Source: Methylophaga sp. (GTDB lineage Bacteria > Pseudomonadota > Gammaproteobacteria > Nitrosococcales > Methylophagaceae). From it: 51,856 nucleotides of DNA. Below, in pieces: positions 9,563-42,367 of this stretch. Numbering within the stretch: the stretch's first letter is position 1; each line of letters starts with the position of its first letter. Where the stretch lies: assembly GCA_002696735.1 (NCBI GenBank), contig NZSL01000001.1, forward strand, positions 1 through 51,856, given 5' to 3'. The notes under the pieces are model-generated. The model worked only from the letters and a program-made list of their open reading frames with translations. It had not been told where the DNA came from and did no database searches. Position numbers and translations under genes: made by a program.

Positions 9563-11894
9563 ACATCAACATGTCCATAGACATGGCAACCAAGTTCACG
9601 AAGAGCATAAGGTCAAAGATCCTGTCTGCGGCATGTCCGTGGAGCCTCAAACTGCACAGCACCAAAGTCAGCATGATGATCAAACCTGGTATTTTTGCTC
9701 TTCACGCTGTAAATCCAAGTTTGACGAAAACCCAGAAGAATACCTCGATGATAAGCAAAAGACGCAAGCCCCGGTAACGCCGGGCACTATGTACACTTGT
9801 CCGATGCACCCCGAAATCCGCCAGCCAAAGCCTGGCGATTGTCCCATTTGTGGTATGGGATTGGAACCTGAGCAAGTCAGTTTGAATGATGGACCTTCTG
9901 AAGAACTAAGGGATATGACCCGCCGATTCTGGATCGGTTTGATACTGGCATTGCCAGTGTTGATACTAGAAATGGGAGGGCATCTGACCGGGCTTGATCA
10001 TATCGTGCCGCCTCAAATGTCCAATTGGATTCAATTAGTTCTGGCAACACCAGTAGTCGTTTGGTGCGGTTGGCCTTTCTTCGTCAGGGGATGGAAATCT
10101 ATAGTGAGCCGAAACCTGAACATGTTTACGCTGATTTCCATCGGTACTGGCGTGGCGCTTATCTACAGTCTGGTGGCAACCCTGATGCCGCAGATTTTCC
10201 CTGATGCCTTCCGTCAGGCGGATGGTTCTGTTGCTGTATATTTCGAGGCAGCTGCAGTGATCGTGGTATTGGTATTGCTCGGGCAGGTACTGGAATTGAG
10301 AGCGCGGGAGAAGACTTCAGGCGCTATTAAGGCTTTACTTGATCTGGCACCCGCGACAGCCAGGAAGTTGGACGATAACGGTGGTGAGTCCGATGTATCG
10401 CTTGACGAGGTCAAGGTTGGTGATCGCCTTCGGGTACGTCCGGGGGACAAGGTACCATTGGATGGTGAGGTGCTTGAGGGTAACTCCAATGTCGATGAGT
10501 CGCTGGTGACGGGTGAGCCATTGGCGGTCAGTAAGACGTCTGGCGATCAAGTCATCGGTGGCAGTATTAATCAGCAAGGCAGCTTTATTATGCGAGCCGA
10601 CAAGGTTGGCCGGGATACTATGCTGTCTCAGATTGTACAAATGGTGGCTAACGCACAGCGGAGTCGCGCACCTATCCAGGGACTGGCAGACAAAGTGGCG
10701 GGTTGGTTTGTCCCGGTCGTCATCGTCATAGCCGTTATCGCCTTTATCGTTTGGTCATTTTTCGGTCCAGCGCCGCCGATGGCTTTTGGGCTGATTGCAG
10801 CGGTTAGCGTATTAATTATTGCCTGCCCGTGTGCGCTCGGCTTGGCAACGCCCATGTCGATCATGGTGGGTGTCGGTCGGGGTGCTCAAAGCGGTGTGTT
10901 GATCCGGGATGCCGAAGCCCTAGAGCGTATGGAAAAGATCGATACTGTTGTAGTAGATAAAACCGGCACACTGACTGAAGGCAAACCACAGGTCACCAAG
11001 CTAGTCACAGCTAATGGACTCAGCGAAGCAGACCTGATGCGTTATGCAGGAGGCCTCGAAAAAGGCAGTGAGCATCCGTTGGCCCATGCTATTTTGGAAA
11101 AAGCCAGGGTAATGAATCTTAAGCTGCCCGATGCCGAAGATTTTGATTCCCCTAACGGTAAAGGGGTCACCGGTTCGATTGATGGCCAGCGGGTTTTATT
11201 GGGTAATCGTATGCTTATGGAGGCAGAAGCAGTTGATACTGCAGACTTTGAAAATGAAGCTGATACGCTTCGCAGGGATGGGGCTACCGTGATTTTTGCA
11301 GCAGTGGCTGGCAAAGTCGCTGGCTTACTTGCTATTGCTGATCCGGTTAAAGAAACCACTCAAGCGGCTATTTTGGCGCTGCAAAAAGAGGGTATACGCG
11401 TTGTTATGCTGACCGGTGATAATCGTACCTCGGCTGAAGCAGTTGCCCGTAAGCTGAATATTGATGAAGTAGAAGCAGAAGTCCTGCCGGAAGATAAAGG
11501 CAAGATTATTCAGCGCCTGAAAGACGAAGGCCGGATTGTGGTGATGGCTGGCGACGGGGTAAATGATGCACCTGCCCTGGCAACGGCCGATGTTGGTATT
11601 GCCATGGGCACTGGCACCGATGTGGCTATTGAAAGTGCCGGTATTACGTTGCTACGCGGTGACTTGATGGGCATTGTCGAAGCCCGCCGGTTATCATTAG
11701 CGACTATGCGCAATATCAGACAAAATCTGTTTTTTGCTTTTATTTACAACACTGCCGGGGTGCCGATTGCCGCTGGGATTTTATATCCGTTTTTTGGCAT
11801 ACTGCTGTCACCAATCTTTGCAGCGGCTGCTATGTCACTTTCATCTGTAAGCGTCATCACGAATGCGCTGAGGTTGCGGCTTGTTAAATTATAA
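9555..11894 (+). CDS. P1B-type copper/silver-exporting ATPase (CopA/SilP type)
   Basis: 779 residues. The N-terminus has no classical HMA domain. It carries a YHS domain (about 20-65: [22 protein letters not shown]) and a heavy-metal-binding module (about 75-105: [20 protein letters not shown]), as in SilP and related pumps. The ATPase core is complete: TGE in [14 protein letters not shown], the metal site CPC at residues 424-426, the phosphorylated Asp468 in DKTGT, the SEHPLAHAI nucleotide-binding His, and [14 protein letters not shown] with these domains indicates Cu(I)/Ag(I) export from cytoplasm to periplasm. It overlaps the small membrane protein upstream. Confidence 0.95.
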
Positions 11895-15689: not shown

Positions 15690-18600
15690 TTGCCAAACTT
15701 ATACGTTGGTCAATCGACAATCGTTTTTTGGTGTTATTGGCTACGCTGATGATGCTTGCCTGGAGCTTGGTATCTTTATCACGTACGCCGCTGGATGCGC
15801 TGCCTGATTTGTCAGATGTTCAGGTGATAATTAAAACGACCTGGCCGGGACAAGCACCGCAATTGGTCGAGGATCAAGTCACCTACCCATTAACCACCAC
15901 CATGTTATCGGTACCCGGCGCTGAAGTAGTACGCGGTCTGTCGTTCTTTGGCGATAGTTATGTCTATGTCTTGTTCGAGGAGGGTACCGATCTGTATTGG
16001 GCCCGCAGTCGAGTGCTGGAATACCTTAATCAGGCGCAGTCAAGGCTGCCGGATACGGCAAGTTCCTCAATCGGTCCGGATGCCACCGGTGTGGGTTGGA
16101 TCTATCAGTATGCTTTGGTAGATAAATCCGGTACTCAGGATATTTCGCAGCTGCGCGCATTGCAGGATTGGTTTCTTAAATTCGAACTGAAAACCGTCGC
16201 CAATGTAGCAGAGGTCGCAACTGTCGGCGGCATGGTCAAGCAGTACCAGGTGGTTGTTGATCCCGACAAATTAGCCACTTATCGCATACCGCTTTCCCGT
16301 GTTATTGAGGCTATCAATAATGGTAATCAAGAGACCGGCGGTGCGGTGCTGGAAATGGGTGAAGCGGAATATATGGTTCGCGCCTCGGGCTACTTGCAAA
16401 GCTTGGAAGATTTTCAATCCATTCCCTTACTAACCACTGATGCTGGTATATCAGTGACTTTAGGCGATGTCGCGTATATTCAAATCGGCCCTGAAATCCG
16501 GCGGGCTATCAGCGAGCTCGACGGTGTCGGTGAAGCTGTGGGGGGCATCATCGTGATGCGTTCTGGCAAAAATGCCCTGACCACCATTGCTGCTGTGAAA
16601 GACAAGCTGAAAACGCTGCAAAAGAGTTTGCCCGAGGGCGTTGAGATTGTGACGGTTTATGATCGCTCTGGGCTAATAGAACGCGCTGTCGATAATCTCA
16701 GTGAAAAGCTTATTGAAGAATTCATTGTGGTGGCATTAGTGTGCCTTATTTTCTTGTTCCATCTTCGTTCAGCCTTGGTGGCTATTGTTTCACTGCCACT
16801 GGGGATCTTGATGGCTTTTATTGTGATGCACTGGCAGGGGATCAACGCTAATATCATGTCACTGGGCGGTATTGCCATCGCTGTCGGTGCCATGGTCGAT
16901 GCAGCGGTGGTGATGATTGAAAATGCCCATAAACATTTAGAACGCTGGTATGAAAAACATCCCGGATCAAAGCTAGAAGGCGACAGTCGCTGGAAGGTGA
17001 TAGGTGATTCTGCCGTCGAGGTGGGCCCCGCGCTGTTTTTCTCGTTGTTGATTATTACGCTGTCTTTTATCCCAATTTTCACCTTGGAAGCTCAGGAAGG
17101 CCGACTATTTTCTCCATTAGCATTTACCAAGACTTATGCAATGGCCGCAGCAGCTGGCCTTGCTGTAACACTTATCCCGGTACTAATGGGCTACCTTATC
17201 CGGGGCAAAATTCCGGCTGAACAGGCTAATCCACTAAACCGGTTTTTAATTGCTTTGTATCGACCTTTATTGGCAGGCGTACTCAAGTTTCCAAAGATGA
17301 CCTTAGTGGTCGCTAGCGTATTGTTACTGACCAGTTTATGGCCTTTACAACATATCGGCAGTGAGTTTATGCCGCCTCTGGATGAAGGTGATTTGCTATA
17401 TATGCCTAGCGCTTTGCCGAGCCTCTCCGCCGGAAAAGTAGCAGAATTGCTACAGCAAACTAACCGGATGATTAAAAGCGTACCGGAGGTTGAAACCGTT
17501 TACGGCAAAGCCGGACGAGCCGATACGGCAACCGATCCGGCGCCACTGGTGATGTTTGAAACCACGATCCAGTTCAAACCTCGTGAAGAGTGGCGGCCGG
17601 GTATGACTAAAGAAAAATTGATCGCCGAATTAGATCGGACCGTGAAGGTGCCCGGCTTAACCAATATCTGGGTACCACCGATTCGTAACCGGCTTGATAT
17701 GCTGGCTACCGGTATCAAGAGCCCTGTGGGCGTAAAAGTTTTGGGGGAAGACTTAAACGTTATTGATGGCATTGCCGGCGACATTGAAAAAGTCCTCAAA
17801 GATGTACCTGGGGTCACCAGTGTTTTTGCTGAGCGTCTCACCGGTGGTCGTTACGTCGATGTTGATATTAAACGTGATGCCGCGGCGCGTTATGGCCTTA
17901 ATATTAATGATGTGCAGTTGATTATCAGTTCGGCTGTGGGCGGCATGAATATTGGCGAAACGGTGGAGGGATTGCAGCGCTTTCCCATTAATGTTCGCTA
18001 CCCCCGGGAGATCCGGGATTCACTGGCCTCTTTACGGACCTTGCCTATCGTGACTATTCGCGGCCAGCAATTGATACTGTCAGATGTTGCGAACATTAGC
18101 ATCAGTGACGGTCCACCCATGGTGCGCAGTGAAAACTCGCGGTTAGCGGGGTTTGTGTATGTTGATATTCGGGATCGGGATTTGGGTTCGGCGGTAACCG
18201 ATATGCAGCAAATCGTCTCGGAGCAAGTGGATTTGCCGACCGGCTATTCAATCACCTGGTCCGGACAATTCGAGTATCTTGAGCGTGCGACTGCCAAGCT
18301 CAAGCTGGTGGTGCCTTTCACGTTGCTTATCATCTTTGTTTTGTTCTATCTCACGTTTAAGAATTTTGGCGAAGCATTGCTGCTAATGGTGACTTTGCCC
18401 TTTTCTTTAGTGGGTGGCATCTGGCTGCTCTATCTGTTGGGACACAACTTGTCGGTGGCGAGTGTGGTCGGCTTTATCGCTTTAGCCGGGGTAGCAGCCG
18501 AGTTTGGCGTCATCATGCTGCTCTATCTTAAGCAAGCCTGGCAAAACCGGTTGGATGAACAAAAAGAAACAGAGGCTGATCTGCTGGATGCCATAGGTGA

Positions 18601-31770: not shown

Positions 31771-33069
31771 TTACTCTGCAGCTGTTAGCGGTTCGGCGGT
31801 GAGTTGTTCGATTTCTGTCTGATATAGCAATGCAGCCGTTGCAGCCTCAATGACACTACGTCTGGCACCTAGCAGGTCTTGTCTGACGGTAAGAAATTCC
31901 AGATAACTGTAGAGTCCCCGTTGATAACCGGTTTGCGTTTGCTCCAGACTTTTAGTGAGTTTGGGGATAATCTGTTGTTGCAACTTGGAAATACTTGCAA
32001 TTGCTTGTTCACGCCCGGAATAGGCCCGATAAAGCTGAGCATGAAGTTGCAACAGCATATCTTGACGGCGATAGCTGACTTCATTACGCGCGGCCAATGC
32101 TGATTCAATATCCCCTTGCGCTCGCTGGCGGCTGAACAAAGGCACTGACACACCAGCAACTAACGCCGAATCATTCAGTCCTTCATCTCGCCTGATCCCA
32201 ACTGACCAGGTCAGATCTGCAACTTGCTGAGTTCTGGCAAGACGTACTTGTGCATCACGAACCCGCGTTTCTGCAGCGAAACGTTCCAGTTGCGGATTTT
32301 GCTGGGCCTGATTAAATAAGGCTTCAAATGACATGGCCTCGCTAAAGGCAAACAATGAGCCTGTGGCGGTCTCAAAATTAGGTTGATAACTCCCCCACAA
32401 ATTAGCGAGTACCACTTTGTTGGCTTCCAGCTGACGTTTTTCGGCAGCCAATATCAGTTCAGCCTGATTAACAGAAGCTTCGGCGCGGCCCAAATCTGCT
32501 TCAGCCGCGACGGCAGCACCTACACGTTTATTAACTTCTGTTAATGTTGTTTGTGCCAGTTCCAGCCCCGTCTCGGCTAGCTTTACACGCTCTTGGCTAT
32601 TGAGCACTTCAATAAATTGTCGTGTTACCTGACCTAGCAAGTCCAGCGCTTTTATTTTGCGATCAACACGGACAACATCGCTTTGTTGTTCCACTAGTTC
32701 AACACGGGACAGTCTTTTATCCCCCAGTTCAACGACAGAGGAGAGAGTGACCGTGGTTTCAAGTGACTTGATACCGCTTAGTTCCCTGGTGCCAGCGAAA
32801 TTTTCAATCTCAGCACCAACAACATATGCCGGTTTGAGATTGGCCGTTTTTTTCTGGGCTTCAAGTTGTTGCTGACGAATTGGAAAAACCTGTAATGCCG
32901 GATGTTGCGCCAGTGTTTGTTGCATGGCCTCGTTTAAACTCAACGTTTTCGTTTGTTGAACGTTCTCGGCTAATACCGGCGAGACAGAAAAGGCAACCAG
33001 CATCGAACAAAGCAATGCACGGATAGCAGGCGCACGCACATTTGTAGTGCGATCAAAGTGTATTTTCAT
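31771..33069 (-). CDS. czcC: CzcC-like TolC-family outer-membrane channel
   Basis: 432 residues: a signal peptide ending near SPVLAEN, then two OEP repeats (LSLNEAMQQTLAQHPALQVF at the start, SLEQTQTGYQRGLYSYLEFL near the end). It is closest in layout to CzcC/CnrC. It is the first structural gene of the leftward czcCBA set and should form the outer-membrane exit of the pump. Confidence 0.9.
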   Translation of the reverse strand: MKIHFDRTTNVRAPAIRALLCSMLVAFSVSPVLAENVQQTKTLSLNEAMQQTLAQHPALQVFPIRQQQLEAQKKTANLKPAYVVGAEIENFAGTRELSGIKSLETTVTLSSVVELGDKRLSRVELVEQQSDVVRVDRKIKALDLLGQVTRQFIEVLNSQERVKLAETGLELAQTTLTEVNKRVGAAVAAEADLGRAEASVNQAELILAAEKRQLEANKVVLANLWGSYQPNFETATGSLFAFSEAMSFEALFNQAQQNPQLERFAAETRVRDAQVRLARTQQVADLTWSVGIRRDEGLNDSALVAGVSVPLFSRQRAQGDIESALAARNEVSYRRQDMLLQLHAQLYRAYSGREQAIASISKLQQQIIPKLTKSLEQTQTGYQRGLYSYLEFLTVRQDLLGARRSVIEAATAALLYQTEIEQLTAEPLTAAE

Positions 33070-33133
33070 GAAATTAGATCCTGTTTAACTGCAAACAACG
33101 GACTTACGTTAAGTCCGCAAAAACATCAGCAGT

Positions 33134-33478
33134 TCAAGATCTCGGAGGGCGGTACATACTGACTGTAAAGTCAGGTTTTGGCGATCTAGGGTGGAGGTTG
33201 AAATAATTGTCTGGAATAGCAGCAACATTAATTCCATCAATATTAAAGATGGCGATAAAATGTGAACACTGACAATGCAGACAAAAATCACAATCGCCGG
33301 TACTTTGTGCATCATGCGAAGACGCACTGTTCGCTTGTTGAATTGCATTGGAATCATCAAGAACAAGCTGATGTTCTTGTGGTGTCTTGGAGTCAGATGT
33401 ATGAATGTCAGCCGCAACTATACCTGATTGCATCACAATCATAAAGATGAGCATGTTGATAATTAATTTTACTGACAT
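33134..33478 (-). CDS. Small secreted protein upstream of czcC (CzcI-like position)
   Basis: 114 residues with a signal peptide (LIINMLIFMIVMQSGIVAAD), a polar middle (HTSDSKTPQEHQLVLDDSNA) and a compact Cys/His cluster, CDFCLHCQCSHF, near residues 82-93. It stands 64 bases before czcC on the same strand, the place CzcI occupies in czc operons, and the Cys/His cluster fits a periplasmic metal sensor or binding protein. I assign this by position and composition only. Confidence 0.6.
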   Translation of the reverse strand: MSVKLIINMLIFMIVMQSGIVAADIHTSDSKTPQEHQLVLDDSNAIQQANSASSHDAQSTGDCDFCLHCQCSHFIAIFNIDGINVAAIPDNYFNLHPRSPKPDFTVSMYRPPRS

Positions 33479-33808
33479 TCGTTAATTTTATTAATGGATT
33501 CTGATGTCTTAGTTAACAACATAATAACTTAGTTCCCAAAAGATTAGCAAAATTAAAAGTTCTCTGCTGGGTCTGTGAGAGTCTGCCACTGTTTTTATGT
33601 AACAAACACATTTTATGTAACAAACACAAAGTTTGTGATGATTTTGAATAGTGTATGAGATCTTATGCTCGGGGTCTCCGGATCTATAAACAAAACTAAG
33701 ACACTATATAATTCGCTAATACTAAGGCGAGAGAAATGTATTGGCTGAAAGATCTTGAGCTATAGAAATTCAGAAAGTGTTGTGTATTCATATTTTCAAC
33801 TAAAGCAG
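33479..33808. other. Intergenic region upstream of the czc block
   Basis: About 330 AT-rich bases between the czcI-like gene and the broken endA. It should contain the promoter of the leftward czc block. It holds an 18-bp tandem repeat (listed separately) and an imperfect dyad at 33509-33532. No gene is seen. Confidence 0.5.
33593..33635. repeat. 18-bp tandem repeat followed by a small palindrome
   Basis: TTTTATGTAACAAACACA occurs twice head to tail (33593-33610 and 33611-33628). The end of the second copy runs into CACAAAGTTTGTG, a 6-bp dyad around a single G. Confidence 0.85.
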
Positions 33809-34126
33809 CTAATTATGAATAGATAGCATGTTGCTAAGTCCACTTAATATGTGCTCGAACTCATTGCGTTCATCACGAAGCTTCTGTTTTCTGACTTGGT
33901 ACCCACACTTTGGCGTCGCACCCCCTGGACGACCTCGCCAGTCCAAGTCACAGCCACAATAGAGTGTTCCTAATGATCCATTACGATTCTGGTCATGATA
34001 AACATGCTCACGAAGCTCAGCTTTTGCTTGTTCAAATGATTCTGGAGCTGCCAGTGTCTAGATACAGATGAGCAATCCAGCGAATAGCGATAATATGATT
34101 TTATTCATTAATCTTTTCATCTTCAT
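33809..34126 (-). pseudogene. endA: Truncated endonuclease I (EndA) remnant with an amber stop in the signal peptide
   Basis: Reading leftward from the ATG at 34126, MKMKRLMNKIILSLFAGLL is a signal peptide, interrupted by TAG (34058-34060). The frame then continues TLAAPESFEQAKAELREHVY, TLYCGCDLDWRGRPGG, CGYQVRKQKLRDERNEFEHI. YCGCD, the CGYxVRK block and the ExEH-like start of the catalytic region are hallmarks of EndA/Vvn periplasmic nucleases. The catalytic core that should follow is missing: the frame ends SMLSIHN-like at 33809. So it has both a nonsense codon and a C-terminal truncation and should be inactive. Confidence 0.82.
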
Positions 34127-34134
34127 TTTATTGT

Positions 34135-34842
34135 TCATACAATCACTGTCACTAAACGACTGACACGCGGGTTACGAACTTTGACGATATCGTCTGCCGG
34201 CGAATTATCTCGAATTAACGCCCAGGTTTCTGTGGTCCGGTTTGGCTTTCCATTCCGAAGAGTCTGCTGGGGCTTTATTTTCTTCCAGTTGGATGAGGTG
34301 AGTAATTTAGAAAACCGACGCCAGGCACGGTCAATCGAGCTGATGACCATTCGCTCACAAAAGCGTTCGACATCAAGTCGCGTGAGGTGAATATCACCAA
34401 TATGCGTTTTGATTTATAGGTCCAAGCAATCATTTGGAGTGATGTCGTCAACTTTCCCACTAAATTCTTCAACCTACTCAGTCCGACGGGCCACCTTGAT
34501 AGCAGCTTCAGCAAAACGTTTTTGAAGAAATCGGCCATTGAGATACGTATCAGTATTGGTAGTCTGTAACTTCTGAGTTTTACGAATAGCACCAGAAGAG
34601 ACATTCAGCTGCAGCTCTTTACCGGTTCGACTCATTCCTACATTCGTTTTGTGCAACAAGATATATTTGATGGCCAGTAATTCCGCCAGCTTATAAGGTT
34701 CTGACTGAGAGGATGGTATCGACACATCTATTGCCCGGACAGTCGTGATTCTTTCCCCATGCTGCACACGGAAAAATACGCGATATTGATTCTGGGATAT
34801 AGGCTCACGATGAACTGCTGTTTCTAAGATGGTAAGTGACAT
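34135..34842 (-). pseudogene. Gene of unknown function with two in-frame stop codons
   Basis: From the ATG at 34842, preceded by AGGAG, the frame reads MSLTILETAVHREPISQNQY, then KLAELLAIKYILLHKTNVG, to a TAG at 34474. The same frame stays protein-like (VEEFSGKVDDITPNDCLDL), meets a TAA at 34414, and goes on for about 90 codons (RLDVERFCERMVISSIDRAW, NGKPNRTTETWALIRDNS) to 34135. The total would be about 235 residues. The family is not recognised; it looks like a plasmid accessory gene. If the first part is still made, it is a 122-residue protein. Confidence 0.6.
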
Positions 34843-34994
34843 TGTGTATTCTCCTGGTTGAATGATTTGTGTCAAAACTACAAAACCATCAAACCACGGA
34901 ACTAGAACCACGCAAGCAGTCTGAGAGCCCATTTCTAGGAGGGCTTGCGCGGATTACTTTCTATGTCATTCTTGTACTAAAACAGGAGAGATGT

Positions 34995-35267
34995 ATGTTT
35001 GAATTTATCAACCACATGACGATTCCACCATTGGATGCCATGGGTTATTACTTATTTGCTGGCGTGCTTCTATTTCACAATATGAAGAGAATCAGATGGT
35101 ACGCAATGAGCCTTTTATGGGTTAGTTTTGGCACCTTTGACCGGGGATTCTTAATTGAGACAACTATGCTTGGATTTGCATTCATGCTGACGGAAGGCTT
35201 TTTTGATACTTATTTCCAACATGAGAAGGCGAAAGCGCAATCCAGGGCGATGAAAAGCAAAAAGTGA
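34995..35267 (+). CDS. Small membrane protein of unknown function
   Basis: 90 residues from the ATG at 34995, chosen for AGGAGAG at 34983-34989; the overlapping ATG at 34991 opens only a three-codon frame. Hydrophobic stretches (AMGYYLFAGVLLF, WYAMSLLWVSFGTF, TMLGFAFMLTEGFF) suggest two or three membrane segments, with a basic tail (KAKAQSRAMKSKK). It is divergent from the broken gene at 34135-34842. No family recognised. Confidence 0.6.
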   Translation: MFEFINHMTIPPLDAMGYYLFAGVLLFHNMKRIRWYAMSLLWVSFGTFDRGFLIETTMLGFAFMLTEGFFDTYFQHEKAKAQSRAMKSKK

Positions 35268-35541
35268 AACTGTCGGGTGTTACTCAAAGTAAGAACTACA
35301 TCACAGTCATGTCATTCACTAATGACAGCTACTGCAGAGAATGCGTATTATGGAATCACTGGTAAATGCCGGCAATGTTCAATAAGGATACGAGCATTAC
35401 AGTTTGCTGTAATGCGAAATACTCTCTCACTGAGATGGTATTCCAAAGCATCTGACCATGTGTTTCGGAATGCCAGATTTCCTGATAACACATCATTGTT
35501 ATCTTGAAGGGTATTCGGTCTCATCAAAACCGAACACAGAT
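35268..35541. other. Structured intergenic stretch
   Basis: No convincing gene. It contains a perfect 9-bp hairpin, GCATTACAG (35394-35402) with CTGTAATGC (35407-35415), followed by the first copy of the GGTATTCC element. The frame open at 35277-35507 runs through these structures and has no ribosome site, so I do not call it. Confidence 0.55.
35423..35474 (+). ncRNA. GGTATTCC structured element, copy 1
   Basis: TCTC (35423-35426) pairs with GAGA (35432-35435) around a TCACT loop. Immediately after, GGTATTCC (35437-35444) pairs with GGAATGCC (35467-35474) with one wobble. Inside the 22-base loop, CAT/ATG can pair and AAAGC near the 5' side faces TTTC at the 3' side. Two more copies lie at 36692 and 37400. 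Confidence 0.6.
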
Positions 35542-35633
35542 GCTTAACCTTAGAACGTTAAGCGATTTAACCCCAGGGGTGATATTCACCCATCTGGGGT
35601 TGAGATCATCCCTAATATTATGGAGTTTTCATT
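35542..35633 (+). promoter_or_regulatory. Two-tier-hairpin 5' leader, copy A
   Basis: Hairpin 1: GCTTAAC (35542-35548) with GTTAAGC (35557-35563). Hairpin 2: outer AACCCCAG (35569-35576) with CTGGGGTT (35594-35601), inner GGGTGA (35577-35582) with TCACCC (35586-35591). Segment 3: TCC (35609-35611) can pair with the GGA of the ribosome site TGGAG (35621-35625). The ATG at 35634 follows 32 bases after hairpin 2. The architecture matches the leaders at 36317, 36817, 37804 and 38567. Confidence 0.65.
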
Positions 35634-36022
35634 ATGGGATGTATTAAAATAGATATTTTTCCCCGAGTTAGATTTTGAATCGGAAATGTTTAGTAAAAGT
35701 TTGCTTGGCTATATCTAACGGTGAACTTAAACAAAATATCGAGATTGATGTTAAAGACATTATCACCTATGAATGGGCACCGATAATGAAAGTTGACACT
35801 GAAACAAAGAAAAACGTCGCGGACATGGCACCAAATGGGATTCGATTATTGCTTTTAACAGGTGAAACGCTGGTGGCTTTTGACCATTGTTATGAAACCT
35901 TCGGTAAATCGGTTGAAATGGCAAGGCGTCCACATGCGAACGTTGTTACTGCACAGCATTTATCGTTAGAAGAAGCAGGTCATCTTTCCTATACGCCGGA
36001 ATGTATCAGAAGTATTCGTTAG
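35634..36022 (+). pseudogene. Small gene of unknown function, apparently frameshifted after codon 14
   Basis: The well-placed ATG at 35634 (GGAG 8 bases upstream) gives MGCIKIDIFPRVRF and a TGA at 35676. A frame shifted by -1 opens exactly there, with TTG at 35675, and runs 115 codons: KVCLAISNGELKQNIEIDVK, ITYEWAPIMKVDTETKK, LLLLTGETLVAFDHCYETFG. Either a one-base change broke the gene, or TTG (overlapping the TGA) restarts translation, or there is a programmed shift at AGATTTTGA. No family recognised. If intact it would be about 129 residues. Confidence 0.55.
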
Positions 36023-36071
36023 AAATTGTGAATTTAACCTGATGCAGAATGTTGATTTATGAACTTTCTGT

Positions 36072-36242
36072 TTATTGAGTAGATTGATTAACCGGCTTTA
36101 AAAAAGCACGGTATTTAATTTTCTTAATGATGCTTTCTGCTAAAGCTTCATCTTTGGTCAGCACAATCGCCCGGATGAGATCATCAGAAAGTAATTGTTT
36201 ATTAGTTGAATGCACTAATTGAAGTCTGTTGGGTTTATTCAT
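36072..36242 (-). CDS. Possible small leftward gene of unknown function
   Basis: 56 residues from the ATG at 36242: MNKPNRLQLVHSTNKQLLSD, then LIRAIVLTKDEALAESIIKK and a basic tail. Composition is protein-like (helical, Leu/Ile heptads), but the ribosome site is weak and I see no known family. An upstream start would give 65 residues. It is one of two small leftward frames in this otherwise rightward set. Confidence 0.4.
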   Translation of the reverse strand: MNKPNRLQLVHSTNKQLLSDDLIRAIVLTKDEALAESIIKKIKYRAFLKPVNQSTQ

Positions 36243-36316
36243 GTAAATGAGTATATCACTGGGCAACAATCACGAAAGGGGCTAAAAACGGCTTTTCCTG
36301 CTTTTTTGCCTACATT

Positions 36317-36405
36317 AGCAAGACATCATTGGCTTTCCAAACCCAAACGGGGATCGACTTCCCGCTTGGGGTGTCGCTCCCTCTTAAACTAAGAGGCATT
36401 TTGAC
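36317..36405 (+). promoter_or_regulatory. Two-tier-hairpin 5' leader, copy B
   Basis: Hairpin 1 is weak here: AGCAA (36317-36321) with TTGGCT (36329-36334), one bulge. Hairpin 2: outer CCCAA (36342-36346) with TTGGG (36366-36370), inner CGGGGA (36348-36353) with TTCCCG (36359-36364). Hairpin 3: CCTCTTA (36380-36386) pairs with TAAGAGG (36390-36396), so the ribosome site AAGAGG is fully inside a 7-bp stem. ATG at 36406. Confidence 0.7.
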
Positions 36406-36684
36406 ATGGAAACCTATCAAGTTATCGCTTTAAGCACATCGCATATTGAAGAGGATGATACCAGTGCATTATGCATTGCAGCCTTTCAAACCAATATCGT
36501 GATGGAGCGTGAATCCAGCTTCTTTATTAAGCTGTATATGAACGATTTGGCAGGAAACCTCTCAGGAGATTACAGTCCTTCACTTTGCAAAGTAATTGAG
36601 TTCGCATTTAACAATAACTTTGAGATGATTGAGCTGGATTCAGATGCCGAGGCCATCCCAGAGTTGGACCAGCACGACTGGTAA
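36406..36684 (+). CDS. Small acidic protein of unknown function
   Basis: 92 residues, acidic and soluble: METYQVIALSTSHIEEDDTS, FFIKLYMNDLAGNLSGDY, then a Glu/Asp-rich end (MIELDSDAEAIPELDQHDW). The start is fixed by the ribosome site AAGAGG at 36391-36396, which lies inside a leader hairpin, so translation may be conditional. No family recognised. A GGTATTCC element starts 8 bases after the stop. Confidence 0.65.
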   Translation: METYQVIALSTSHIEEDDTSALCIAAFQTNIVMERESSFFIKLYMNDLAGNLSGDYSPSLCKVIEFAFNNNFEMIELDSDAEAIPELDQHDW

Positions 36685-36691
36685 AGCATTA

Positions 36692-36746
36692 CCTCTGTCA
36701 ACAGGGGTATTCCAAAGCGTATTCACATAGTACATTTCGGAATAGA
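36692..36746 (+). ncRNA. GGTATTCC structured element, copy 2
   Basis: CCTCTG (36692-36697) pairs with CAGGGG (36702-36707) around a TCAA loop. GGTATTCC at 36706-36713 pairs through TATTCC with GGAATA (36739-36744). The 25-base loop starts AAAGC and ends TTTC as in the other copies, with GTA/TAC able to pair inside. The two stems share the bases 36706-36707, so they may be alternative folds here. Confidence 0.55.
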
Positions 36747-36816
36747 TATCCAGTAGATAGCCAAAAACTATCTATTCGATAAGTCAGCCGGACTTATTTA
36801 AAACCGGCCTCAATGT

Positions 36817-36901
36817 CCAAGCAGCGCGCTGTTTGGAATCCAAAACCTATATGGGAGTAACTCCCTTATGGGCGGCTGCTCCCTTTAAAAAGGAGAGTAA
36901 C
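36817..36901 (+). promoter_or_regulatory. Two-tier-hairpin 5' leader, copy C
   Basis: Hairpin 1: CCAAGCAG (36817-36824) with CTGTTTGG (36829-36836), loop CGCG. Hairpin 2: outer CCTATA (36846-36851) with TATGGG (36867-36872), inner GGGAG (36853-36857) with CTCCC (36861-36865). Hairpin 3: CTCCCTT (36879-36885) faces the ribosome site AAGGAG (36890-36895). ATG at 36902. Confidence 0.7.
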
Positions 36902-37324
36902 ATGCAAAATACACCAGAGTTTGGAGCACCAAGAGCGTCAGATAATATGACAACCATGGAGCTACGAAATGCCAGAACGCCGTTCACACTTGAAGTAACA
37001 CTGGATAAACTTCGGTATTACCTTAAAGCAACACTACATCATGACGCTGTAGAGTTACTTGAAAAGGCAGTTGATAAGGCCAAGGTAGACAAAGATTATT
37101 TTAATCGACTTGAAAGTGCACTGCTTCGAGGTTCAACCGTTGAAGGCCGAGAGTTATTCTCAGACTTTGGCGATTACTGGGCAAGAACGAGTTCGGTAAT
37201 TCCATATTACCTACATCATGATGCCGTAAACAGCATTGATACCGCTTTATTTCAAATCCGAATTGGTGATATGAAAGAAGCAATTGATGACTTTAATTTT
37301 CTACATAATTGTTCTCTGGATTAA
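36902..37324 (+). CDS. Small soluble protein of unknown function
   Basis: 140 residues from the ATG at 36902. An upstream in-frame ATG at 36833 would put the structured leader inside the coding region, and AGGAG at 36891-36895 fits 36902, so I take the shorter form. It reads MQNTPEFGAPRASDNMTTME, then helical stretches (LDKLRYYLKATLHHDAVELL, SVIPYYLHHDAVNSIDTALF). The two HHDAV segments, about 70 residues apart, suggest an internal duplication. No family recognised. Confidence 0.65.
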   Translation: MQNTPEFGAPRASDNMTTMELRNARTPFTLEVTLDKLRYYLKATLHHDAVELLEKAVDKAKVDKDYFNRLESALLRGSTVEGRELFSDFGDYWARTSSVIPYYLHHDAVNSIDTALFQIRIGDMKEAIDDFNFLHNCSLD

Positions 37325-37399
37325 TAGTTTTGACATGTAAGCTGAGTTACCCGGATATAACGGGATAAGAGAGGTTGATGATACATCAGCCTTTGAATA

Positions 37400-37454
37400 C
37401 TCTCTCAAAGAGAGGGTATTCCCAAGCACTCAATAGAGTGTTTCGGAATACTCT
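37400..37454 (+). ncRNA. GGTATTCC structured element, copy 3
   Basis: CTCTC (37400-37404) pairs with GAGAG (37410-37414) around a TCAAA loop. GGTATTCC (37415-37422) pairs with GGAATACT (37445-37452). Inside, CACTC pairs with GAGTG around AATA. This is the best-folded of the three copies, and the inner stem differs in sequence from copies 1 and 2 but pairs in the same place. Confidence 0.65.
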
Positions 37455-37662
37455 ATTCTCGGTAGCGTTATCGTTATCCTAGTGCTTGGATATAAATAAA
37501 ACTTGGCACCTATGATACGACGACTTTGACGATATTTATCCTCTCGATACTATTGGCAAACTATACAACTAGCCCCAGTGCCTTTTACCTATTCCAGTAG
37601 GCTATCAAACACATAGTTGAATCATTATTCGGGTAGAGTGTGAACTGCATCAATGTATATCG

Positions 37663-37691
37663 TTGACAGCGATCTTACCCATCGATAAAGT
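37663..37691 (+). promoter_or_regulatory. Sigma70-type promoter for the 37896 gene
   Basis: TTGACA (37663-37668), a 17-bp spacer, then TAAAGT (37686-37691). The transcript would start near 37698 and carry a leader of about 200 bases including copy D of the hairpin leader. Confidence 0.55.
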
Positions 37692-37803
37692 TATCTTAAT
37701 TGTTTTTTATACCTGTCTTTTATTAGCCAGGTATGAAGTGCTCGTCCAACAAACCAAGTGGACGCTCAACTATTCATTTGTACGCAGATGATTTCACTGA
37801 ATT

Positions 37804-37895
37804 GATTATCTGTAAGCAGATAATTCACCCATAGGGGAATACTTTTTCCCTTTTGGGCATAGTGTTCTCCTTTTTTTTATCTGAGGAGTAACACC
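37804..37895 (+). promoter_or_regulatory. Two-tier-hairpin 5' leader, copy D
   Basis: Hairpin 1: ATTATCTG (37805-37812) with CAGATAAT (37817-37824), loop TAAG. Hairpin 2: outer CCCA (37828-37831) with TGGG (37854-37857), inner GGGAA (37835-37839) with TTCCC (37846-37850). Hairpin 3: CTCC (37867-37870) faces the GGAG of the ribosome site GAGGAG (37883-37888). ATG at 37896. Confidence 0.68.
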
Positions 37896-38093
37896 ATGAC
37901 TAAAATCAATGTTCTTGAAGTAAGCTTTGAGGATTCGTCTGAGCAACAGCTGGAAGATACCATGCATGATCTGATTTCATTATCAGATACCATGACTACA
38001 CCTGCTGGCAAAAAGACAATTGAAGCTGCAATTGAGGCAATTGCTGAAGAACAACGCCGTCGCGTTTCTAAACCAGTTCTTGTCGCTATTTAG
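37896..38093 (+). CDS. Small acidic protein of unknown function
   Basis: 65 residues: MTKINVLEVSFEDSSEQQLE, then DLISLSDTMTTPAGKKTIEA and a helical end (AIEAIAEEQRRRVSKPVLVA). GAGGAG at 37883-37888 sets the start. Soluble and probably mostly helical. No family recognised. Its end overlaps the tail of the leftward small gene at 38086-38277. Confidence 0.62.
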   Translation: MTKINVLEVSFEDSSEQQLEDTMHDLISLSDTMTTPAGKKTIEAAIEAIAEEQRRRVSKPVLVAI

Positions 38094-38277
38094 GCTTCTG
38101 CTGATTATCTGCAGCAAGAGTTAACGCCCCTTTGGGCGTTAACGATTCTGCAATCTGAAAGGCAGTTTCTCTGTCTTTATCCACCAACAACGCTTTTAAG
38201 ATTTCATTGGCTTTTTGTACTTCTAAAGCCTCGCGTCCGCCGTGGATGACATTCAGAGTTTTCTTTTTTTCTGCCAT
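38086..38277 (-). CDS. Small leftward protein of unknown function
   Basis: 63 residues: MAEKKKTLNVIHGGREALEV, QKANEILKALLVDKDRETAF, then QIAESLTPKGALTLAADNQQ. It reads as a real small helical protein, with GGA shortly upstream. Its 3' part contains a perfect 10-bp hairpin (38120-38143) and its end overlaps the 37896 gene tail to tail by 8 bases. No family recognised. Confidence 0.5.
   Translation of the reverse strand: MAEKKKTLNVIHGGREALEVQKANEILKALLVDKDRETAFQIAESLTPKGALTLAADNQQKPK
38120..38143. terminator. Perfect 10-bp hairpin between convergent small genes
   Basis: GTTAACGCCC (38120-38129), loop CTTT, GGGCGTTAAC (38134-38143). There is no T run on either side, so it may act as a weak or Rho-type end point, or as a message-stabilising hairpin for the 37896 gene. 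Confidence 0.5.
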
Positions 38278-38304
38278 TTAGTTTTCCATTTTCAGGGGGA
38301 GCTT

Positions 38305-38556
38305 ATGCAAACAATTCTCAATTTAACAAAACAAATGACCTGGTGCGAATTTTCTGGGTCAATCTTTGGACTGCTTGGCGCTTTTTTGGTTGCCATGCAG
38401 GTTCCTGGATCAGAGTTTGGATTTGTATTCTTTTTAATCTCAAATCTTTTCTTTATCCAGTTTTCGTTAAGTAATCGTTATTACGCACTGCTGCTGATGC
38501 AAGTGGGTTTTACGGCTACCAGCTTGATGGGGATTTATAACGGGTTTTTCGTTTAA
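38305..38556 (+). CDS. Small PnuC-like membrane protein
   Basis: 83 residues from the ATG at 38305 (GGGGGAG upstream). Three hydrophobic segments: FSGSIFGLLGAFLVAMQ, GFVFFLISNLFFIQFS, and YALLLMQVGFTATSLMGIY. The pattern resembles short proteins related to half of a PnuC/SWEET-like transporter that turn up on plasmids. Substrate unknown. It lacks the hairpin leader of its neighbours. Confidence 0.6.
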   Translation: MQTILNLTKQMTWCEFSGSIFGLLGAFLVAMQVPGSEFGFVFFLISNLFFIQFSLSNRYYALLLMQVGFTATSLMGIYNGFFV

Positions 38557-38566
38557 TCCTTCAATG

Positions 38567-38657
38567 TCTCAACAGTCAACTGTTGAGAATTATTTAACCC
38601 GGAGGGTAACAATCCCTTACGGGGGTTTGACCTTTCGATTAGTAAATGGAGATCATC
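38567..38657 (+). promoter_or_regulatory. Two-tier-hairpin 5' leader, copy E
   Basis: Hairpin 1: TCTCAACAG (38567-38575), loop TCAA, CTGTTGAGA (38580-38588). Hairpin 2: outer AACCC (38596-38600) with GGGTT (38623-38627), inner AGGG (38603-38606) with CCCT (38614-38617). Hairpin 3: CCTTT (38631-38635) can pair with AAATGG (38644-38649) across the ribosome site TGGAG. ATG at 38658. Confidence 0.65.
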
Positions 38658-38942
38658 ATGACTCAATCTAAATTTATTACTGAGAGAGGCCAAACCGTAA
38701 CCATTGAAGAGAAATTGGCCAGTATCCCTTATGGCTGGTCTGGTCATATAGATGTGTCCGGTGTGGAGGAGCGAGAAGGGCACATATATGCTTCTGAATC
38801 TCCTTCATTCTATGGTACCTACTGGGTTCTCGAAGATGGCACTGAAATGTGGCTTGAGAATTTTCTCGATGCAACTGTGGCCAATAGTTTTGCTGAACAA
38901 GTGAAGCAGGCAGCACTCATCAAAATCCAACAAAGACATTAA
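38658..38942 (+). CDS. Small soluble protein of unknown function
   Basis: 94 residues from the ATG at 38658; the in-frame ATG at 38646 lies within the ribosome-site region (TGGAG at 38647-38651) so the later start is preferred. It reads MTQSKFITERGQTVTIEEKL, then GHIDVSGVEEREGHIYASES and YWVLEDGTEMWLENFLDATV: beta-rich with Trp and Gly. No family recognised. A strong terminator follows. Confidence 0.65.
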   Translation: MTQSKFITERGQTVTIEEKLASIPYGWSGHIDVSGVEEREGHIYASESPSFYGTYWVLEDGTEMWLENFLDATVANSFAEQVKQAALIKIQQRH

Positions 38943-38962
38943 GTAAGTGAAGCTCAATAACT

Positions 38963-38992
38963 AAGCCCTCTGTTCTATAGAGGGCTTTTTTT
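38963..38992 (+). terminator. Intrinsic terminator closing the small-gene block
   Basis: AAGCCCTC (38963-38970) pairs with GAGGGCTT (38980-38987), followed by a run of seven T (38986-38992). Confidence 0.9.
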
Positions 38993-39013
38993 GACTTTTA
39001 ATGCAGCACAGAA

Positions 39014-40987
39014 TTATAAGAAGTGCATGAACTCCTCAAATGACTGGGGCAAGATTAGCGTATGTCTACTTCGAGTAATACCTAAATAAAGTCTTGATGC
39101 TAATGACGAACGAGCGGCCTTGTTCTCTTTGTTTTGAATAGACATAGATCTTTTCACATCATACAACTGTTGGATAATTGCAGGTGCCAACATGACGCTA
39201 TCAAATTCATGATTTCGTGCATTTTGAAATAATCCAATCACATATTGAGCTGACTGAGACTGTAACGATTTCGTCGTCTCCCAATGTTCGGTTTTATAGC
39301 CTTTTTCAAATAACTTGTTGAGGTGAACCACTGAACGATGTCTTGAATTCTGACTCATAACAGAATACCAATCCGGGTAGTTACTTAACCCTATCACCCG
39401 CACAGGCTTTTTCTCGCGATAGAGTCGAATACACGCACGTGCAAACTGATCTAACTGTGATTCACTGCCAAGTACCCTATATGGTAGATTGAGGGCCGAA
39501 ATCCTTTCCACCCACTCGAATAACTCCCATAAATCATCCACCCATATAGCTGTAGGCTTTGCAGGAACATCAGGACGATCATAATATTGAATTTCACTTG
39601 AACGGTCACGGTTGGCAATGAATTCATCCTTTACTGGCAAGGAATGTAGTTCGAGAGAAAAGTTAACAATATCGCCAAGCTTTCCTGGTGTCCTGATAGA
39701 TGTAGTCATTTGCCTCTCAATTGCGGGAGATGTTCGTTTTGCACTATACGAATTGACTGCTTGAAAATGGTCACCAAGCCCGACATAGCCTTGGCTGCTT
39801 CGCTCGATAATCTCTAACATTGCTTCACTTAAATCATGACTCTCATCAACTATCAGTTGTGAAAAATATGTAGGTATTTTGAATCTATGCAGTGAGGCAT
39901 ATTTGATAACATGATAATCCCGAATAGGCAGTTTCACTGGAAAGTTAGGGGGAGGGTTAGTTACAAACTCCCAGAGCAAAGCAGAGTGAGAAATTAAATA
40001 GGACTTATCTTCCGAACCAAGGCCAACAACCCACTTTGGTATAAAATCTTCTGTAATTTCAGTATTCCGGGACCAGCAAAACCTAGCTACCATTTGAAAT
40101 ATAATACTGCTAACTCGATTGGGATTATAAGTTGAGACCGATCTTAGATTAAATTCTGCTGCGATAGCATTAATGGGATTTGCCTCATTATCCAATGATG
40201 TCCGAATCAACTGAACATTATTTTGAGAAAAATCTTTGGACATTAAGAGTGACGCAAATTGGCCAAAGGTCATTATCTTAACCGAAGGATGAACTACGGC
40301 TCTAAGCGCTTGAAGCTGAACTGTAGAATTGGTTAATACTAAAATCCTCTTAGCATTATATTTATTTCTACTGACCAGAATTTCTGAGATAGCCGAGAGC
40401 ATATGTGTTTTTCCGGTCCCAGCATATCCATGAACATCAATATGCTCATCAGAAAGGCTGCGCTCAATCTGTCTGAATATTCTATGTTGATTACTGAACA
40501 TTTCCCGTTGCTGTCCAGTTGGTAATGCAATAATTACCTTTTCTTGTATATCCGGATGTTTGTAGTTGGCCTTAAATTCATAATCCCAACTTCCATCAGC
40601 TTTGAGATATTTTGCATTTCTCACATCTATCTCTGGAAGTAGATATATATCGTTGGCCTTAGCAAAATCACGGCCTTTCCGAATTGCTGCTGTTGAAAAA
40701 CGATCCTTTATCTCATCAACGAACTTATTCTTAGGCTGGCTTTCCTGTTGGTGGCCCAAATTGATAATTTCGTGAAGTATCTTTTCAAGGCTGAGATTAT
40801 TAAGTTTATTCAGTGAGGGTAATTGATTGATAAGATACAAAGAAGCCAACTCTTGAACAGTTAGGCTCTGAAATGTATTGCTTTTGGTTACTGATAAATC
40901 AAGCTCATCGCCATCATAAGTAATCGACTCAGTTAAAACCAACTCTAAGGTTTCATTGCTTATAGGTAAAAATAACCTATTTATCAT
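39014..40987 (-). CDS. UvrD-like superfamily 1 helicase / ATP-binding protein
   Basis: 657 residues. Walker A is GYAGTGKT at 187-194 and Walker B is LIVDESHDL, followed by GLGDHFQAVNSY and, near the C-terminus, SRLYLGITRSRHTLILPQ, the last helicase motif of UvrD/PcrA-like enzymes. The N-terminal 150 residues are not recognised and may be a plasmid-specific binding domain. It is encoded 51 bases downstream of the rep gene on the same strand, so it is probably made with Rep and may unwind or remodel DNA during plasmid replication; that role is inferred. Confidence 0.82.
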   Translation of the reverse strand: MINRLFLPISNETLELVLTESITYDGDELDLSVTKSNTFQSLTVQELASLYLINQLPSLNKLNNLSLEKILHEIINLGHQQESQPKNKFVDEIKDRFSTAAIRKGRDFAKANDIYLLPEIDVRNAKYLKADGSWDYEFKANYKHPDIQEKVIIALPTGQQREMFSNQHRIFRQIERSLSDEHIDVHGYAGTGKTHMLSAISEILVSRNKYNAKRILVLTNSTVQLQALRAVVHPSVKIMTFGQFASLLMSKDFSQNNVQLIRTSLDNEANPINAIAAEFNLRSVSTYNPNRVSSIIFQMVARFCWSRNTEITEDFIPKWVVGLGSEDKSYLISHSALLWEFVTNPPPNFPVKLPIRDYHVIKYASLHRFKIPTYFSQLIVDESHDLSEAMLEIIERSSQGYVGLGDHFQAVNSYSAKRTSPAIERQMTTSIRTPGKLGDIVNFSLELHSLPVKDEFIANRDRSSEIQYYDRPDVPAKPTAIWVDDLWELFEWVERISALNLPYRVLGSESQLDQFARACIRLYREKKPVRVIGLSNYPDWYSVMSQNSRHRSVVHLNKLFEKGYKTEHWETTKSLQSQSAQYVIGLFQNARNHEFDSVMLAPAIIQQLYDVKRSMSIQNKENKAARSSLASRLYLGITRSRHTLILPQSFEEFMHFL

Positions 40988-41038: not shown

Positions 41039-42367
41039 CTACGAATCATCTTCGTTAAATTGATCAACAAGATATTGATAACGATTTGCTATCAACTCCT
41101 GGTCTGTAAATCTGAGTCTAATCTCGTCATAAAGACCTTTCTTCTCCAAACGTGAAATTTCTCGCTGTATAAATTCGTCAGCCAGGGCAACCTTAATAGA
41201 ATTTGCATTACCTGACGTTTCTAATAGATGTTGGTGAGAAAATGGCTCAGTGTAAATTCTATTAAGGATCTGTTTACTAATACTGTTCACAGCATGCTTA
41301 AAATCAAACTTCAATCCAACTTTTCGCTGCATAGAAATTATGTCAGAAATTATCCATGACATTAACTCTTCTAAATTGGTAATCGTTACGTTTTTTGAAC
41401 AATTTTTTAGTGTCGTTTGAAGATACCTTCGTTGAAGGCGATTAGGTATGCGTGTCTTTGCATCAATGACTTCATTAAGACTAAGGACTTCAGCATATCG
41501 GTTTCTCTGCTTGGAAAAATTCGTTATTTTGAAAACAACCTCATCCTTACCGCGAGGCTTCTCATATGTCACTGCAATATCATATTTCTTATGCTTGTTT
41601 ATCTGTTCAACTGCCGGTTTGAGAACCTGGCTATTAAAGTATTTCCATTGTGGGTATGTATTGCTTTCAAAGAAGCCCATTTGACGTCGTAATGACTCGA
41701 ATGAAATGGTAAATTTTGGCTTGAAAGCATAAGACTTAAAGATAGCATAGAGCCGCTGTGCATTCCCTGTAGTTAGTGCCTCTAATAGTTTTAAATCTAG
41801 CTGAGCATAGCTCTGTATTGGAACCATTTCTTCGTAGATTTCACTTTGTACTTTAACGATAATGTGGTCTTTATCATCAGTTGGATTGTAGGTGATTCGA
41901 GGAAACATTGAGATAAAATCAAACCCCATTTGCCCCTGCTTATTTGGGCCAATATAGTTCCTCACTCGCATATCCATAAGACCTTCAGCTGCATCTCTGA
42001 GCTGTTTACTTCGATTGCTAGGATCAAATAGCTTGCTGTCAATCTTGTTCACTGGAACACGTATGATGATACTTTCCATTGAAAACGACTCTACATATTG
42101 ATCATCTCTATCGAGGTAAAACTGTTTTACAGTTTCATATATTTCAATAAATAGAAGCCACTGTATTTTTGTAAACGAGTTTGAATATTCCGCCAATGAG
42201 AAAGAACGGTTAATTACTCGAAACTCACGCTCTTCTTCTACTGTTAATCCATTGATAACTAACTCACCCTCAAGGGCGTCTGCCTTTTCTGAATTAGTGG
42301 ATTGCTCCCCAGAATACTCCTGATCAAGTTGATCTCCGAGCAAGTCATTATCCTCTTTATTACTCAT
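41039..42367 (-). CDS. rep: Rep_3-family plasmid replication initiator (RepB/RepA type)
   Basis: 442 residues, longer than most Rep_3 initiators (about 250-350), with an acidic N-terminal extension of about 70 residues. The two winged-helix domains are seen in FSLAEYSNSFTKIQWLLFIE, then YAQLDLKLLEALTTGNAQRL, YAIFKSYAFKPKFTISFESL, and FNSQVLKPAVEQINKHKKYD, the typical Rep_3 second-domain block. A third region follows with another helical domain. It should bind the iterons that begin 15 bases upstream of its ATG. Sites between the ATG and 42600, including an inverted one, suggest autorepression. Confidence 0.9.
   Translation of the reverse strand: MSNKEDNDLLGDQLDQEYSGEQSTNSEKADALEGELVINGLTVEEEREFRVINRSFSLAEYSNSFTKIQWLLFIEIYETVKQFYLDRDDQYVESFSMESIIIRVPVNKIDSKLFDPSNRSKQLRDAAEGLMDMRVRNYIGPNKQGQMGFDFISMFPRITYNPTDDKDHIIVKVQSEIYEEMVPIQSYAQLDLKLLEALTTGNAQRLYAIFKSYAFKPKFTISFESLRRQMGFFESNTYPQWKYFNSQVLKPAVEQINKHKKYDIAVTYEKPRGKDEVVFKITNFSKQRNRYAEVLSLNEVIDAKTRIPNRLQRRYLQTTLKNCSKNVTITNLEELMSWIISDIISMQRKVGLKFDFKHAVNSISKQILNRIYTEPFSHQHLLETSGNANSIKVALADEFIQREISRLEKKGLYDEIRLRFTDQELIANRYQYLVDQFNEDDS

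Follow-up and report, generated by a model that had tools for sequence, protein, structure and literature searches.

The question raised by this locus is whether five unrelated small genes, each preceded by a structured leader (A to E), share one layer of RNA control. The locus lies in a 51,856-nucleotide (nt) stretch of Methylophaga sp. DNA (NZSL01000001.1), which was analyzed as a whole, is called the window here and makes up the entire contig 16 of a 3.3-Mb genome. A shared control layer had been proposed from an initial inspection of the DNA (the sequence-only reading), and homologues, covariation and tests in later genomes support it: the RNA family is real, widespread and functional-looking. 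We estimate at roughly two in three the probability that the leaders are cis-acting translational attenuators of a family widespread on conjugative plasmids and integrative elements, in which a competing fold, formed by pairing between two segments named c and a, opposes the masking of the ribosome site. The recurrence of the leaders, the position of the start codon and the two complementarities described below are directly established.

From 5' to 3', the proposed anatomy begins with a short outer stem (CCCA..TGGG) and an inner hairpin c:d (GGGnn..loop..nnCCC). Segment a (x-CUCC/UCCC) comes next, then a spacer, in many cases rich in U, and finally segment b (the Shine-Dalgarno (SD) sequence plus the x' sequence) and the start codon. 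Segment c is formed by the inner 5' strand of hairpin 2 (H2) plus its loop, and many Methylophaga copies carry a further hairpin (hairpin 1, H1) upstream of H2. Segment a, which masks the SD, is complementary both to the SD arm b and to segment c, and c therefore resembles b; in leader D, for example, c is GGGGAAUAC, a is GUGUUCUCC and b is GGAGUAACAC.

All five leaders were confirmed on the forward strand at the positions first proposed. They contain the two-tier H2 in 5/5 leaders and a third structure that covers the SD, both as claimed from the sequence, whereas the claim of a shared H1 holds strongly for A, C, D and E and shrinks in B to an H1-like stem of merely 4 base pairs (bp; 36329-36340). 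In leader A, H1 (35542-35563; supported by RNAfold) is followed by H2 (35569-35601; outer strands AACCCCA/TGGGGTT, segment c at 35576-35588) and by a stretch holding segment a (35602-35612), the SD region b and the start codon (35602-35636), with a c:a duplex of -14.5 kcal/mol. Leader B carries H2 at 36342-36370 (c at 36349-36358) and, at 36371-36408, segment a (36371-36386), the SD and the start codon (c:a -12.4 kcal/mol); its SD, AAGAGG, was indeed found inside a 7-bp stem. Leader C consists of H1 (36817-36836), H2 (36846-36872; c at 36853-36860) and the segment from a (36875-36885) through the SD to the start codon (36875-36904; c:a -12.2 kcal/mol), and leader D of H1 (37804-37825), H2 (37828-37857; c at 37834-37842) and segment a (37862-37871), the SD AGGAG and the start codon within 37862-37898 (c:a -14.0 kcal/mol). 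Leader E has H1 at 38567-38588, H2 at 38596-38627 (c at 38604-38612) and a weak segment a (about 38626-38635), followed by the SD and the start codon (38626-38660). A covariance model named R1, built from 23 leaders on the H1 and H2 structure only, matched leader A at 35531-35640 with an E-value of 7.9e-9 and leaders B to E with E-values of 9.8e-8, 1.1e-13, 3.8e-16 and 4.6e-13, all five being among its own seeds.

The evidence for the two complementarities comes from a swap test, in which the energy of a leader's own duplex was compared with that obtained from swapped leaders, after reduction to dissimilar representatives and with 5000 permutations. For the first set, 17 of 124 pattern matches were dropped because they lay on the minor strand, had an over-long tail or came from locus L092, and seven typed leaders of the M. 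pinxianii plasmid L002 were added to give 114; the first swap test used 112 leaders, including five of the typed L002 leaders. The own c:a duplex was stronger than the swapped ones with 27 representatives (-12.2 versus -8.2 kcal/mol, Z -9.7, 0/5000) and with 70 (-12.1 versus -7.9 kcal/mol, Z -17.1, 0/5000), and a:b gave Z values of -9.7 and -14.1, respectively (0/5000 each). The variable part of c, which is left when its first 4 nt are removed, retained the match to a by itself in this set (Z -5.7 and -9.5) and in all sets (Z -5.0 to -9.5). The control pairing c:b stayed at Z 0.8 in the first set and between 0.8 and -1.5 overall, and a reversed c gave Z -0.8 with the 27 representatives. When representatives of the other clusters were swapped into window leaders A to D under a coarse clustering into 16 clusters, 0/15 performed as well.

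The same relationships were recovered in later genomes, which were found with R2, a model rebuilt from 120 matches that has no c:a term. R2 gave 78 matches (E<=0.2) in 20 fetched loci, none of which had matches on both strands, and 67 of the 78 could be parsed. With 26 and 57 representatives, c:a reached Z -9.7 and -16.7 and a:b Z -9.9 and -15.9, and the own c:a was at or below -9 kcal/mol in 53/57. This later set still contained SXT-type copies resembling the first set; a stricter set, without the SXT-type L122 and L125, without L137 and without any row that shared 75% identity or more with the first set, comprised 31 of the 67 rows (26 representatives). There, own c:a stood at -12.6 against -7.6 kcal/mol for swapped pairs (Z -10.2, 0/5000), a:b at Z -9.7 (0/5000) and the variable part of c at Z -6.2, with controls at -0.4 for c:b and -1.3 for reversed c (-0.5 to -1.7 across the later sets).

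The pattern of H2, SD and ATG matched in the window at the five leaders only (eight overlapping matches, both strands counted), and block-shuffled sequence yielded eight matches per 988,135 bases. In an alignment that was fitted to the covariance model, 44 distinct Methylophaga rows showed two-sided changes in 119 cells against 39.3 +/- 5.5 after shuffling (0/500), and the covariation score was 0.385 against 0.138 (0/500). H1 and H2 were paired in 86.7% of cells, falling to 54.7-57.9% after a slide by one column, and H1 accounted for 92 of the 119 cells with two-sided changes. The 77 later rows gave a pairing of 83.7% (58.7-64.4% when slid) and 210 two-sided changes against 82.5. The proposal that the H2 stems vary yet keep pairing stands for positions flanking the cores and not for the cores themselves, since CCC (5' outside)/GGG and GGG (5' inside)/CCC are almost invariant. 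RNAalifold on a plain MAFFT alignment returned only six pairs, one of them with a two-sided change, which at face value runs contrary to the sequence-only reading; we took this poor result as a sign that the segments are misplaced in a sequence alignment, and used instead the stated H1 and H2 structure, the models R1 and R2 and the swap test. H2 pairs included 78 G-U against 23 A-C combinations (tallied from related sequences, so the counts are not independent), and this excess of G-U suggests that H2 acts as RNA, on the sense strand.

The search for further members with a covariance model, proposed at the outset, returned many more matches ahead of diverse genes of mobile elements. R1 matched 7/24 Methylophaga genomes: the window's own genome (10 matches, five on other contigs), four others (12, 13, 10 and 3 matches) and two with weaker matches (4 and 1) on large contigs, probably chromosomal. 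The M. pinxianii plasmid L002 has these same leaders and others besides, with ten matches to R1 at E<=0.03. Loosening the E-value brought in R1 matches on the minor strand as well, mostly reverse complements of leaders. The weak chromosomal matches form single-strand clusters in SXT/R391-like elements at E<=1, with eight matches in L063 (all minus) and six in L065 (all plus). In these elements the leaders precede bet, genes that going by SXT gene order are presumably exo, cobS and cobT, and others. L065 and a Proteus mirabilis record encode Bet proteins that are 99.6% identical; region L095 of that record has the same leaders (eight R1 matches, the bet leader among them), and leaders were found directly before bet in L065, L095 and L094.

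The pattern picked out 13 leaders in 24.8 kb of an IncC plasmid, all but one of them (12/13) ending exactly on an annotated start codon; the genes so preceded include ssb, a lambda-exonuclease gene and DUF3150, VWA and methyltransferase genes. A further plus-strand pattern match, at L094 4160 within traN, was judged false. The IncC bet leader, missed by the pattern, has a c:a of -17.7 and an a:b of -9.9 kcal/mol, and the SXT-type bet leader on NZ_OL790812.1 has H2, a c:a of -11.7 and an a:b of -12.3 kcal/mol. R1 detects the SXT-type and IncC bet leaders weakly (E 0.18 and 0.14), and R2, whose seeds include such copies, finds a further SXT-type copy at E 5.7e-5. The window leaders are tied to the bet leaders by model and architecture, not by gene.

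Across wider samples, R1 matched 11/274 gammaproteobacterial genomes at E<=0.01, and R2 matched 33/369, often several times per element, and 16/398 across the phylum, two of them outside Gammaproteobacteria (the own genome is counted in both R2 figures). These genome counts are lower bounds, since the filters were strict and few candidates per genome were scored in the large searches, and some single weak matches may be due to chance, because the E-values are rough and per genome. The start codon, itself part of the model, opens a frame after 196/198 leaders, at a median of 35 nt after H2, and 182 of 191 closed frames have at least 40 amino acids. The 190 frames of at least 30 amino acids fall into 79 protein clusters (blastp 1e-4), between which there may be remote kinship. 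A Pfam scan of 78 of the 79 cluster representatives (one containing X letters was left out) found, among the 25 of 34 families listed, RadC, ArdA, SSB, the ArdC N-terminal domain, an Antirestrict family, RecT, YqaJ, a DNA methylase, CobT/VWA, a CbtA-type toxin and several DUFs, each with one or two members.

These observations are consistent with a default-off translational attenuator that has a latent on-fold, which is our reading. Because segment a is unable to pair fully with both b and c, two mutually exclusive folds are predicted. In the putative resting state, c:d and a:b would form together, the ribosome site would be covered and translation would be low. In a fold survey, 170 of 198 leaders could be parsed and 163 have an SD-like tetramer; at least 3/4 of its nucleotides are paired in the predicted fold in 147/163, including all five window leaders. 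In the alternative state, c would capture a through its loop and inner strand and thereby free b, and the outer stem could persist alongside c:a, producing an H-type pseudoknot. Some signal would favor the opening of c:d or the formation of c:a, most likely an element-encoded RNA-binding protein or a transfer-related cue, so that early and DNA-handling genes would be made only when wanted. We infer the existence of the on-fold from the conserved complementarity in the sequences, and the on direction of c:a, the pseudoknot and the signal are likewise parts that we infer.

Several observations weigh against this reading. Leader E fits poorly, with a c:a of -3.8 kcal/mol and without the switch pairing, and c:a is also weak in some others, such as L085+4757 (-8.0 kcal/mol) and L127:13838 (-3.2 kcal/mol). 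The reversed-c control is not flat with 70 representatives (Z -2.9, 14/5000), and the permutation counts are not exact probabilities, since the representatives still share ancestry. Forcing c:a costs a median of 6.3 kcal/mol in a nested model, which cannot score the outer stem together with c:a; at most 2/4 SD nucleotides are then paired in 98/163 leaders, but at least 3/4 remain paired in 65/163. Given this cost and the masking that is kept, the on state may need help. As for the plasmid-coded factor raised as a possibility in the sequence-only reading, FinO/ProQ was rejected as an on-element candidate, because neither the IncC nor the M. pinxianii plasmid records showed such a gene; FinO/ProQ matches occurred in 4/12 genomes or records, each far from the leaders or on another contig. 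Clustering of open frames over 3-50 kb per locus likewise revealed no protein family common to most of the 30 element groups. Finally, H1 lacks an excess of G-U over A-C (27 versus 23 and 35 versus 35) and for this reason may not act as RNA; it may serve instead as a DNA site or have an accessory role. The H1 tip in Methylophaga often reads G(UACG)C or G(UAAG)C and H1 covaries strongly; it could be a DNA-binding dyad.

The leaders that keep their SD paired when c:a is forced bear on an explanation in which nothing switches: the H2 loop would take up the 5' part of a and leave the 3' part over the SD, and the resulting static pseudoknot would serve as a strong, constitutive brake or as a shape for protein binding. 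The complementarity of the loop part of c alone to a would suit such a structure. On the other hand, c:a, with a median of 9 bp, usually extends into the GGG strand of c, which is also the partner of d. As b and c both need the x part of a, the full pairings exclude each other; we consider a static structure unlikely. Translational coupling, in which ribosomes finishing the upstream gene would open the leader and keep operon neighbors proportionate, draws on the 55/170 leaders whose upstream stop lies at most 25 nt from H2, many of them copies from integrative and conjugative elements and IncC plasmids. The remaining 115/170 have a more distant stop or no upstream frame within reach, and in five Methylophaga sources the stop is 137-189 nt away in 16/31 leaders, with extra hairpins between. 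Coupling was thus rejected as a general rule, and as an account of the family it is improbable.

Two further explanations leave translation altogether. If c:a and a following U-run formed an intrinsic terminator, with c:d as the antiterminator, the leaders would attenuate transcription. At least five T among the 8 nt after c:a are present in 84/170 leaders, whereas the other 86 lack such a run (by eye, leaders A and B of the window are among them, as are several copies from IncC and SXT), and a terminator would leave a:b without a role. A U-run in these 84 leaders only led us to reject this reading as general, and we regard it as very improbable. The hairpins might alternatively work in DNA, as Frpo-type single-stranded promoters or another DNA-level hairpin used on single-strand entry; the downstream SSB, ArdA, ArdC, RadC and methylase genes do resemble those of leading regions, where Frpo promoters lie according to the portion of PMC11541004 covered here. 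The preference of H2 for G-U over A-C, the tie of distance and pairing to the SD and start codon, and promoter-like matches in the region at the level of shuffled sequence (11 versus 9.2 +/- 2.6) all tend to speak against this explanation, to which we give the least credence.

If the leaders are translational attenuators, a broader proposal can be entertained, although we hold it only tentatively: a single RNA switch class may form an element-wide post-transcriptional regulon, IncC and SXT/R391 included, in which the SD mimic c competes with b for a, and one common signal, perhaps transfer or establishment, would flip all leaders and release anti-defense, single-strand-binding and recombination proteins. 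Drug resistance is carried to a large extent by IncC plasmids and SXT/R391 elements. If each element places about a dozen genes under a translation-level layer, this could account for the poor expression of the highly transcribed bet and exo and would join anti-restriction, SSB and recombination genes in one regulon. The covariance model finds further members and uncharted early genes of mobile elements, and adds to the catalog a broad RNA family with a testable structure.

Within the window, the leaders sit among small genes between a metal-efflux cluster and a distant RepM-like replication initiator gene (41039-42367; match at 2.8e-11, under the curated cut-off). Gene B (36406-36684, +) encodes a DUF5983 protein of 92 amino acids (PF19419, E 2.7e-13), the only one of the five downstream proteins with a Pfam family above the cut-off; gene C (36902-37324, +) encodes 140 amino acids and was matched in 4/24 Methylophaga genomes, its own counted, and gene D (37896-38093, +) encodes 65. 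Gene A (35634-36022) meets stops soon after its start, and another frame is open again from 35675. It looks broken in the window genome, as the L002 copy continues where the early stops occur here (by eye). The M. pinxianii plasmid NZ_CP095734.1 covers 76% of the first 25 kb of the window at 90% identity and 39% of the 33-42.5 kb region at 88%, and Methylophaga plasmids are the closest named relatives of the window.

Another structured element, named U, precedes leader A (35418-35534, +; GGTATTCC..GGAATGCC, GATAACA..TGTTATC and TTCGG..CCGAA hairpins) and leader C (36706-36808, +), and a further copy lies between gene C and leader D (37396-37450, +). Three hairpins make it up: GGTATTCC/GGAATACC, against which a CTCTC/GAGAG arm competes, GATAACA/TGTTATC, and CCGG..CAAAACCGG; it also occurs in L002 (14768-17618, -), and seven copies show two-sided changes at 10 of 32 predicted pairs. 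L002 further contains a leader-like fold at 18025-18131 (-) ahead of a frame that by eye has only about 25 codons and may be a remnant or a tiny gene, and, by eye, many copies of a TATAGGTTTTCAGGACA-like repeat at 10800-11700, probably iterons of the plasmid's origin. The 18-mer TTTTATGTAACAAACACA is perfectly duplicated in tandem at window 33593-33628 and present as a single copy near L002 20360 (by eye).

Four Rfam scans at gathering and permissive thresholds gave nothing overlapping a leader, and matches elsewhere were due to chance or to unrelated introns, insertion sequences and integron elements; none of the Rfam 15 riboswitch and leader families reached its gathering threshold in the window. 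This agrees with the sequence-only reading that the leaders match no known Rfam class. The nearest mechanism appears, by analogy, to be the activator pseudoknot of repZ on the IncI-alpha plasmid ColIb-P9. There, a strand of an upstream hairpin is complementary to the SD-masking strand, and a leader peptide is present. Translation of repZ depends on a pseudoknot that forms upstream of the ribosome site, and fails when this pseudoknot is blocked (PMC8383071, in the portion covered, citing Asano and Mizobuchi 1998). The c:a swap tests point to the same kind of complementarity here; repZ is one replication gene under an antisense RNA, whereas the present leaders serve many genes, and the likeness is one of mechanism.

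The STAXI motif (RF01728) keeps similar gene company, lying near ssb, antirestriction and integrase genes, and consists of two or usually three tandem pseudoknots according to the part of PMC2864571 covered, whereas the window family usually has one unit per start codon (one case, L086, looks tandem). The STAXI model gave no gathering matches in the window, none at E<=10 in 33000-40500, none at E<=5 in five related loci and none at E<=2 in L094, L095 and L088. Frpo elements, folded DNA promoters with -35 and -10 boxes (PMC11541004, same portion), are alike in placing hairpins ahead of similar genes on incoming plasmids, whereas the conserved parts here are an SD-masking RNA fold and the spacing to the start codon. 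Control in IncC and SXT/R391 elements has been described mostly at transcription, through SetCD and AcaCD (PMC4542580 and PMC4344509, in the parts covered). A description of the family, its element-wide use or the c:a competition was not found in searches of an open-access library, subscription papers being outside the scope, and term searches of the accessible text of PMC4344509, PMC4207636, PMC4489591 and PMC11493245 retrieved no description of the family; within the literature searched, all three appear to be new. The class is nevertheless not wholly unfamiliar, a point that goes against the sequence-only reading, since one member is already on record: in SXT, bet is preceded by a strong translational attenuator that lowers translation and that IncA/C plasmids have too (PMC4542580, a review, in the sections covered). 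This attenuator is the nearest described member, and among the papers covered only this review mentions it. Both the SXT-type and the IncC bet leader show H2, c:a and a:b; those sections of the review describe the attenuator for one gene and make no mention of c:a, whereas here the IncC bet leader stands beside the 13 pattern-found leaders, and leaders of this kind precede many genes.

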